From the NCBI RefSeq assembly GCF_000376445.1, contig NZ_AQXI01000001.1, forward strand, positions 2,567,734 to 2,631,733: a DNA stretch of 64,000 nucleotides, in the 5' to 3' direction. The stretch's first letter is position 1; each line of letters opens with the position of its first letter. The position numbers were made by a program, and so were the translations under genes. Shown here piece after piece: positions 13,957-26,332 of this stretch. Under the pieces are notes generated by a model. The model worked only from the letters and a program-made list of their open reading frames with translations. It made no database searches and was not told where the DNA came from. Source of the stretch: Haladaptatus paucihalophilus DX253. GTDB lineage: Archaea; Halobacteriota; Halobacteria; Halobacteriales; Haladaptataceae.

Positions 13957-14394
13957 TTTTTCGATATGGCGCGCGCTGGCACAGCCCAGAGGACAGCGGT
14001 CGTCCGACGGGCTGTGGTGATAGCATGCGAGGTCTTCGTGAGTGACGAAGGAACGAACGAATGGCTCGTCAGAGCTCTGCTCTGACGGTGGATGAGCGGA
14101 ACGGAGTTCTCGTGAGTGCAACGAACGAGAGCACGGAAGAGCGTGCTCTTCCGGAGTGGAGTGAGTCGTTTGGGGAGGGAGTGGCGTGCGAGGGTTCGAA
14201 GAAACCTCGAATGCGAATAGCGCGGAACGACGTTCCGCGGACAGTCGAGCGGGCACGGCCCGCGAGACGACGGCAACGCCGCGAGCACGCGGTGTGGTTG
14301 CGGTGCGGTGGTGGTTTCATTGACGTCTGTACACGCGGTCACAGAAGAACTACCAATTCGGAGCGGGCGGGCAGGGGCGTTCGAAGTTTGCTAC
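13957..14394 (+). repeat. Hairpin-bearing intergenic element, copy 1 (about 440 bases)
   Basis: Fills most of the 626-base gap between rbcL and the thermosome gene. Its two ends match, base for base over long runs, the reverse complement of 50885-51176. It carries: an outer stem CACAGCCC/GGGCTGTG (13980-13987 with 14009-14016); CTTCGT/ACGAAG (14034-14050); CGTCAGAGC/GCTCTGACG with a 3-base loop (14067-14087); CGGAAGAGC/GCTCTTCCG (14134-14153); CGCGGAAC/GTTCCGCG with a 3-base loop (14221-14239); and GCGGGC/GCCCGC with a 3-base loop (14249-14263). A 39-codon frame (13966-14085) is open in it. It may be a mobile repeat, a structured RNA downstream of rbcL, or both. The remaining 130 bases to 14527 show nothing else. 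Confidence 0.7.
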
Positions 14395-24745: not shown

Positions 24746-25717
24746 ATGGCAAACGACTTCCCCGACTACCTCGACGTGGATTACACGGACGGCGAAGGCG
24801 AGAACCCCGAAGACTATCCCTCGCTCGAAGACAAGATCGAGAAGGCGATAGACGTCACGCGCAAGGGTCTCGAAGAGTACGAGAATCCCGCCGTCATGTG
24901 GACCGGCGGTAAGGACTCCACGCTCACGCTCTACTTCATCAAGGAAGTCGCGGAGCGCTACGACTTGGAAGTCCCCCCGGCGGTGTTCATCGACCACTAC
25001 CAGCACTTCCAGGAGATTCACGACTTCGTGGACTACTGGGCCGACGAGTGGGACTTGGAGGTTATCTACGCCCGCAACGAGGACGTGGGCGGCTACGTGG
25101 ACGAACACGACCTCGAACCCGGTGACGACATCGAAATCGACGCGCTCTCGGAGCACAACCAACACCACGTCCGGGAGCTCCTCGAATACGAGGAGGACAC
25201 GTTCCCGTTCCTCCTCGACACCTACGTGGGCAACCACCTGCTGAAAACCGTCGCGCTCAACGACGCGCTCGAAGAGTACGACGTTGACGGCGTTATCTCC
25301 GGCGTCCGCTGGGACGAACAGGAAGCCCGCGCCGACGAGACGTTCTTCAGCCCGCGCCACGACCCCGAAATCTACCCGCCGCACGACCGCGTTCAACCCA
25401 TCCTCCACTTCGACGAACCCGCGGTCTGGGACGCGTTCTGGTACTTCGTCGTCCCGGACACCGTGGAGGACTACCCCGACGACGGCTACGTCCCGCAAGG
25501 CTTCGACGACCTGCCGAACGACCTCACGCAGGACGACATCCCCGTCTCGCCCAAGTACTTCGAAGGGTTCCGCTCGCTCGGCAGCGAAATCAGCACCGAG
25601 AAGAGCGACCAGGAACCGGCTTGGCTGCAGGACATGGAGAACACCACCGAGCGTGCGGGCCGCGCCCAAGACAAAGAGGACCTGATGGAGCGCCTGCGCG
25701 ACTTGGGTTACATGTAA
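24746..25717 (+). CDS. PAPS-reductase / ATP-sulfurylase-like PP-loop protein
   Basis: A protein of 323 residues. AVMWTGGKDSTLTL (SGGKDS-type loop at 53-58) is the pyrophosphate-binding motif of the PP-loop ATP-pyrophosphatase / CysH family. It has no C-terminal cysteine signature (ECGLH) of assimilatory PAPS reductases, and in the haloarchaeal version the second half is very acidic. It could be a sulfur-relay or nucleotide-modifying enzyme rather than a true reductase. No other sulfur-assimilation gene is next to it. It is followed by a gene-free palindrome block. Confidence 0.75.
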   Translation: MANDFPDYLDVDYTDGEGENPEDYPSLEDKIEKAIDVTRKGLEEYENPAVMWTGGKDSTLTLYFIKEVAERYDLEVPPAVFIDHYQHFQEIHDFVDYWADEWDLEVIYARNEDVGGYVDEHDLEPGDDIEIDALSEHNQHHVRELLEYEEDTFPFLLDTYVGNHLLKTVALNDALEEYDVDGVISGVRWDEQEARADETFFSPRHDPEIYPPHDRVQPILHFDEPAVWDAFWYFVVPDTVEDYPDDGYVPQGFDDLPNDLTQDDIPVSPKYFEGFRSLGSEISTEKSDQEPAWLQDMENTTERAGRAQDKEDLMERLRDLGYM

Positions 25718-25742
25718 GACCCACCTTTTACGACGGTCGCAA

Positions 25743-26106
25743 GTGGAAGCGCCGACGGTTACCGTCGGCGCTTCCACGGGCATCTTCACGGCTTCGCCGT
25801 GAAGGAACGAGGGAGCTTTGCTCCCTCGCATTCCCTGTAAAAGCTGGACCAAAAGCAGCAGAAGACGTTCCTGCTCGCTTCGCTCCGCGGGCTGCGACTT
25901 CCTGGCCTTCGTTCGCTCCGCTCACGAAGACATTCCTCCTTCATTTCGCAGGAACCACTCGCACCGCGAGTGGTTCCTGCTCCATTCAGTCGTCGGCCAG
26001 GAAAATCTCCGATTTTCCGGTGTCTCACAATCGCGGGGCGATTGTGATGGCTCGAAAGACCGCAGGTCTTTCCGTGGGTGAGCTAGCGACGGACGGTTGT
26101 GTCGCT
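25743..26106. repeat. Block of seven unrelated perfect hairpins with 3-base centres
   Basis: Stems in order: 25743-25777 (16 bp, centre TTA); 25784-25804 (9 bp, TTC); 25808-25828 (9 bp, TTT); 25948-25980 (15 bp, ACC); 26000-26018 (8 bp, TCC); 26025-26047 (10 bp, GGG); and 26054-26072 (8 bp, GCA). Two weaker stems with longer loops lie at 25907-25929 (6 bp) and 26085-26106 (6 bp). The stems share no sequence with one another. The segment 25908-25931 resembles part of the element at 51074-51102. No coding frame here is convincing. It begins 26 bases after the PAPS-reductase-like gene, and the rest of the gap to 26332 shows only a likely promoter for the methyltransferase. Confidence 0.75.
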
Positions 26107-26332
26107 TGCCGATTTTAGGCTCATTCCACTTGCGGGTTCAGTCGTCGTATCAGTCGTTCGTTTTTCGTGGTCGCGTCGCTGGTCGATTCCCGGCGGCAGT
26201 GTCATTGGCCTATCGCTCGGCTCACGTTCGTTCGCCGTTCGCTGGCCGGGATTCGTTTCGATGCAGAGACGCGTCAAACGATACCGATTCACAAAAATTG
26301 CTTTTGTTTCTTCATTCCAATCGACAGATAGA

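Follow-up and report, generated by a model that had tools for sequence, protein, structure and literature searches.

Bacterial REP and BIME sequences are dispersed intergenic palindromes with short loops, which form mosaics and inverted pairs behind genes and are recognized by three features: numerous extragenic copies, an imperfect palindrome with conserved sequence, and an associated TnpA-REP gene (RAYT, of the Y1 type). In the haloarchaeon Haloquadratum walsbyi, short repeats that carry palindromes or inverted ends but no transposase, and that produce no target duplications, have been described (PMC3119063); these comprise the non-coding, IS605-derived PATEs, which have near-terminal palindromes, and SMR-A and SMR-B, which are approximately 80–110 bp in length, have inverted ends unrelated to known transposons and have no identified mobilizer. 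Perfect stems, multiple compensatory changes and inverted loops have been described as products of template switching (PMC8794818), and T-runs located shortly past the stop codon are a known intergenic termination motif in Haloferax volcanii (PMC7237163).

An element that resembles each of these systems in part was identified in the genome of Haladaptatus paucihalophilus DX253, in a window of 64,000 nucleotides (contig NZ_AQXI01000001.1, positions 2,567,734 to 2,631,733). A preliminary description had drawn attention to a gene-free block of seven perfect palindromes at positions 25743–26106 of the window. The reading that accounts best for this block, to which we assign a probability of approximately 0.6, is that it represents a haloarchaeal non-coding, non-autonomous, mobile palindromic repeat inserting at gene 3′ ends, which is REP- or SMR-like and possibly a two-way terminator. 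No account of the element in haloarchaea was found in the literature consulted on known repeats, which included the PATE/SMR paper (PMC3119063) and a REP survey.

Structure of the element

The block lies in a 615-nt gap (25718–26332) between a plus-strand gene encoding a PAPS-reductase domain (PF01507; 24746–25717) and a class I methyltransferase gene on the same strand (PF13649; 26333–27181), and a codon model trained on the same genome finds no gene in this gap. When the sequence was re-read, the lengths, centers and positions of the seven stems proved to be as first given, except that the first stem is equally readable as 17 bp around a 1-base center. Perfect hairpins with a stem of at least 8 bp and a 3-nt loop number 6 in 25743–26106, compared with a mean of 0.008 and a maximum of 1 in 2000 dinucleotide shuffles of the same segment, which rules out chance palindromes. 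A CRISPR or tandem array was also ruled out, as there is no unit repeating inside the block. The preliminary description had further held that the stems share no sequence and that the block is neither a tandem repeat nor a CRISPR array. The stems do differ among themselves, but further copies of the block and of most hairpins in it are scattered across the genome, and the block is in fact a copy of a dispersed repeat family that spans the order. Its limits are wider than first proposed, extending from just after the stop codon (25717) to approximately 26118, where a degenerate repeat tail takes over.

A common order was recognized in the 16 copies that were read: the stop codon is followed by ACCTTTTACGACGGTC, hairpin A, CCTGTAAAAG..ACCAAAAGC, an optional core of approximately 70 nt, the constant sequence CTCCTTCATTTC, hairpin B, the constant sequence TCCATTCAGTCGTCGGC, hairpin C and a degenerate tail. 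In these 16 copies, the slots between the constant linkers hold different perfect hairpins from copy to copy. The core unit consists of an 11-bp closing stem, P1 (CCACCTTTTAC/GTAAAAGCTGG), around a hairpin of free sequence, followed by GACCAAAA and one or more hairpins.

In the window, the element abuts the stop codon TAA (25715–25717) of the PAPS-reductase gene. The left arm of P1 (CCACCTTTTAC, 25721–25731, plus strand) begins 4 nt past this codon and holds a T-run; its partner is the right arm (GTAAAAGCTGG, 25837–25847, plus strand), with a C.C mismatch at 25724/25844. Between the arms are hairpin A (25743–25777; 17 bp with a 1-nt center or 16 bp with TTA) and two optional modules, namely CTTCACGGC-ttc-GCCGTGAAG (25784–25804), which recurs in L029 and L032, and CGAGGGAGC-ttt-GCTCCCTCG (25808–25828), which recurs with the loops ttc, tcc, aaa and gaa. 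The right arm is followed by a conserved linker (ACCAAAAGCA, 25848–25857, plus strand), in which a second A-run forms a second T-run on the opposite strand, and by the optional core (GCAGAAGACGTTCCTGCTCGCTTCGCTCCGCGGGCTGCGACTTCC..., 25858–25935, plus strand), the most widely shared part between families. This core is also found without the P1 unit, with up to 93% identity across haloarchaeal families. Hairpin B (25948–25980; 15 bp, loop ACC) has CTCCTTCATTTC and TCCATTCAGTCGTCGGC on either side and, like hairpin A, is replaced in other copies by a different perfect hairpin. Hairpin C (GGAAAATC-tcc-GATTTTCC, 26000–26018) carries the loop TCC here versus GGA in the closest relative. The window copy is large: besides the two additional hairpins enclosed by P1, it has two past hairpin C, namely TCACAATCGC-ggg-GCGATTGTGA (26025–26047; related sequence in L030 and L035) and GAAAGACC-gca-GGTCTTTC (26054–26072; recurring in L030). 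The degenerate tail (GCTAGCGAC..CGGTTGTGTC..GCCGATTTT.., 26080–26240, plus strand) leads to the promoter region of the methyltransferase gene. In L044 (9794–9990), the tail consists of degenerate tandem repeats of a unit near 27 nt (GACACAACCGCCAGAAACGGC...). A second row of intergenic hairpins is located at 14067–14239 of the window (CGTCAGAGC-tct, CGGAAGAGC-gt and CGCGGAACG-a), the first two of which recur as a pair in L046 (10148–10345) and in other genera (L248, L249).

The two arms of P1 covary. One P1 pair in 58 Haladaptatus copies is A-T in 37, G-C in 12, T-A in 6 and C-G in 2; in a set of 130 copies drawn from many genera, outer pair 4 is Watson-Crick in 128 (shuffle maximum, 69), with all four pair types used, and outer pair 5 in 126 (shuffle maximum, 102). 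The C.C mismatch is present in 94 of the 130 copies, the remainder being mostly C-G or G-C. The lengths of the T-run and the first A-run are correlated (rho 0.86). The second A-run (ACCAAAA) varies in length along with both (rho 0.58), as though either A-run were an alternative pairing partner for the T-run.

Distribution, position and inheritance

The element is multi-copy, order-wide, chromosome-biased in this genome and flush with stop codons, and is sometimes accompanied by gene-end duplications and sometimes arranged in tandem. Dozens of matches to the block are found in the genome that carries it, with 78–97% identity in the longer ones, and 56 of 59 relatives also have matches. A search with a pattern composed of the P1 right arm and the linker, with copy maps based on sequence stretches around the matches, identified approximately 30 true-looking copies in the genome, all of them on C1, which makes up 2.95 Mb of the 4.32-Mb assembly (chance of about 1e-5 if copies were spread by length). 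The pattern is present in all eight congeners, at 3–26 copies each. Within the order, the core unit was detected in 89 of 146 sampled genomes, belonging to 37 of 57 genera, with a reversed-pattern control near 0; of 164 genomes from other orders or beyond, 1 carried it. In other families the unit is often approximately 95–130 nt in length and in tandem. Viral contigs matched the 16-nt pattern at about the chance rate, and viral carriage was rejected: 13 of 103 scored viral matches exceeded the P1 threshold, and the 12 that were readable are AT-rich chance matches with no flanking framework.

The element starts between −2 and +7 nt from the stop codon in 68 of the 89 copies that follow a gene on the same strand, and copies beside a divergent gene lie most often 37–48 nt upstream of the start of that gene, a distance that falls just beyond a haloarchaeal promoter; the copies in these position counts are not all independent. 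Some copies directly follow tRNA genes (L250, L256, L276), and others lie antisense behind convergent genes. In L256, 17 nt from the 3′ end of the tRNA reappear on the far side of the element, an arrangement like that of integrase att sites. Two elements face each other in L032 (9376–10080) and L036 (9820–10480), one at each border of the intergenic region, and several further pairs in congeners are 280–440 nt apart.

At the site behind the PAPS-reductase gene, the element is present in all nine Haladaptatus genomes in a constant orientation but with different hairpins. The expectation that the stems would be kept in close relatives is thus borne out for their place, while their sequence is often different. 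Each of the six element sites comparable with the congener G004 (800 kb) is kept in the same orientation, and no presence/absence polymorphism within the genus was found among these six; at the L035 site, the copy in the H. paucihalophilus genome is recognizable only as a degenerate one. Outside the genus, the PAPS-reductase site is mostly empty, with scattered gains. In Haloferax, H. profundi and H. marinum have a unit of approximately 100 nt past the stop codon and ahead of the native T-run, which ten other species lack; the empty site is seen, for example, in H. elongans and H. larsenii. The PAPS-reductase-like gene of Haloferax (L178–L219) is followed by a diverged tandem paralogue with approximately 73% DNA identity. 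The element has been gained in some lineages and then inherited in place. Because no polymorphism was found at the six sites, its current mobility is unproven, and no transposition event was observed.

Direct repeats of 17–72 bp, consisting of the 3′ end of the neighboring gene or tRNA, flank 12 of the 130 copies versus none of 258 mismatched controls. The left repeat stops 0–6 nt before CCACC, with the exceptions of L138 (16 nt) and L241 (9 nt), and the right repeat usually begins at the stop codon of the gene; the H. paucihalophilus genome itself contributes two cases, L116 (69/70) and L122 (37/37). In L269, L277 and L290, tandem units include the gene end. The repeats fit two routes that the data do not separate: an insertion that duplicates the gene end, with unequal crossing-over afterwards, or a tandem duplication of the element plus the gene end, with a break at the base of P1.

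Upkeep of the hairpins

Hairpins with 3-nt loops are in excess genome-wide in intergenic DNA. Those with a stem of at least 10 bp number 32 intergenic versus 3 genic in the 464 kb of stretches gathered around element copies; in 800 kb of contiguous stretches from a related genome, 19 intergenic and 4 genic hairpins with 3-nt loops were counted, and 3 nt is the commonest intergenic loop size. The commonest loops among the hairpins of the element are GGA/GAA triloops with a C-G closing pair.

One explanation for such hairpins is that the element is a structured RNA, that is, a 3′-UTR element, an RNA terminator or a small RNA, and that its hairpins persist because the folded transcript is under selection. 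The block folds strongly as RNA (z −8.9 and −9.6 for the two strands), but it does so equally well as DNA (z −9.2 and −9.7), and energy alone therefore cannot pick the strand or the molecule. The covariation of P1, the conservation across the order, the agreement of the T-runs with the termination motif of Haloferax volcanii (PMC7237163), and the placement on the coding strand just past stop codons are all consistent with an RNA; on the other hand, some elements are antisense behind convergent genes, the sequence and number of the hairpins vary freely, and a search of Rfam with the block returned nothing close to any gathering score. The composition of the stems also argues against selection on a transcript: the near-perfect hairpins of 73 copies contain 2033 Watson-Crick, 15 G.U and 18 A.C pairs, compared with 12 G.U and 0 A.C in 19 tRNAs from the same loci, a control in which the selection of tRNAs favored pairable stems. 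We consider a structured RNA rather unlikely.

The loops of hairpin C, counted with the orientation of the framework fixed, are GGA in 11 cases, TCC in 8, TTC in 6 and GAA in 2, and hence comprise no more than two reverse-complement pairs. Comparison of orthologous sites shows flips of the loop between TCC and GGA or between TTC and GAA with unchanged flanks, and hairpin A of L045 differs by paired changes. The absence of a G.U excess and the loop flips fit DNA-level template switching, not RNA selection; together with the GGA/GAA triloops and their C-G closing pair, they uphold the suggestion of the preliminary description that the palindromes have a role in DNA structure over one as a structured RNA. 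Template switching explains the perfect stems, the paired changes and the flips without selection on RNA: a polymerase would repeatedly copy one arm from the other, such that the stems stay perfect while their sequence changes, and the same process would flip the 3-nt loops. Loop inversion and compensatory changes between close relatives are likewise found in the published cases, which are mostly rRNA genes and microRNAs, whereas the element is a dispersed archaeal repeat family (PMC8794818).

The same mechanism, being known (PMC8794818) and able to produce loop inversions and Watson-Crick-only compensatory changes, might be invoked on its own, with the palindromes made and perfected in ordinary intergenic DNA and no mobile element involved. 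Such a view would not account for the number of copies, their fixed placement at stop codons or the direct repeats, nor for the shared framework sequence, which by itself argues strongly against it; we regard it as highly improbable. The C.C mismatch, the linkers and the position are beyond template switching and need recognition or selection; because arm-to-arm copying alone would not leave a conserved C.C mismatch, P1 must be subject to sequence-specific recognition or selection.

Relationship to mobile elements and terminators

No mobilizing enzyme was found among the PF01797, PF07282 and PF00589 candidates in the H. paucihalophilus genome. The Y1 transposase family PF01797 has no match in this genome, with positive controls, and two of the three TnpB genes have end palindromes of the CCCCGCCGT/ACGGCGGGG type, the other having none alike; IS605/TnpB parentage was rejected because there is no Y1 gene and the TnpB ends are unlike the element. 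Seven PF00589 integrase genes are present, and a phage integrase was rejected as the mobilizer since no link between these genes and the element was found. Two integrase genes with equal scores (G000:C1:1981519 and 2009287) lie approximately 28 kb apart and are perhaps a duplicated element.

Hairpins recognized by Y1-type transposases feature a conserved stem mismatch, as P1 does, and the element could be a degenerate relative of the PATEs and SMRs of Haloquadratum walsbyi or of IS200/IS605-type elements, moved in trans by a Y1 transposase. It is small, non-coding, palindromic, haloarchaeal and found in mosaics, and the PATEs and SMRs are equally short and transposase-free, with palindromes or inverted ends (PMC3119063). 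Such a relationship is nevertheless quite unlikely given that the genome has no Y1 transposase, that the resident TnpB ends carry a different palindrome, and that the Haloquadratum repeats, compared by description, lack target duplications whereas 12 of the 130 element copies have long ones.

As in REP/BIME, there are approximately 30 extragenic copies and an imperfect palindrome with conserved sequence (the P1 C.C mismatch), but the associated TnpA-REP gene is missing, with no match to PF01797, and the element differs in the free stem sequence in fixed slots, the T-run/A-run closing stem and the long flanking direct repeats. It departs from the PATEs in that its palindromes are unlike the ends of the resident IS605-type TnpB loci and in the 17–72 bp repeats around some of its copies. 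SMR-A, compared by description, inserts into PATE palindromes without target duplication, while the element is found at stop codons and tRNA ends. With respect to MITEs, for which a parent transposon was sought via PF01797, PF07282 and PF00589, the P1 arms form an 11-bp inverted repeat that encloses only part of the element, and the duplications vary from 17 to 72 bp. The element acts like the REP/SMR-type mobile palindromes, with SMRs compared by description, yet lacks defining features of REPs and PATEs.

New copies would arise by a DNA-level process that breaks at the left end of P1. The gene strand of the element carries a single T-run, and the opposite strand carries two; in contrast to the Haloferax volcanii terminators (PMC7237163), the T-run on the gene strand is a hairpin arm and is accompanied by the two opposite ones. 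T-runs on both strands make a role as a two-way transcription terminator plausible on sequence grounds, a weaker inference than those above; given such activity, an element that inserts just past a stop codon would do no harm or be of use. More tentatively, the family may exemplify a class of enzyme-poor mobile archaeal DNA that targets gene 3′ ends, at stop codons as well as at the ends of tRNAs, leaves a duplicate of the gene end when it inserts, carries its own two-way terminator and has recognition hairpins kept perfect by template switching.

The element is a real, unusual and order-wide repeat family that has a target preference of its own and hairpins that seem to be maintained at the DNA level, and it adds to the haloarchaea a repeat family that is missing from the RNA library and from the literature found. 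It provides a natural system for watching template switching, in which comparison of close relatives allows loop flips to be scored directly, and raises the question of what positions a small DNA element only a few bases from stop codons. Should it prove to terminate transcription, the element would constitute a mobile supply of terminators in archaea.
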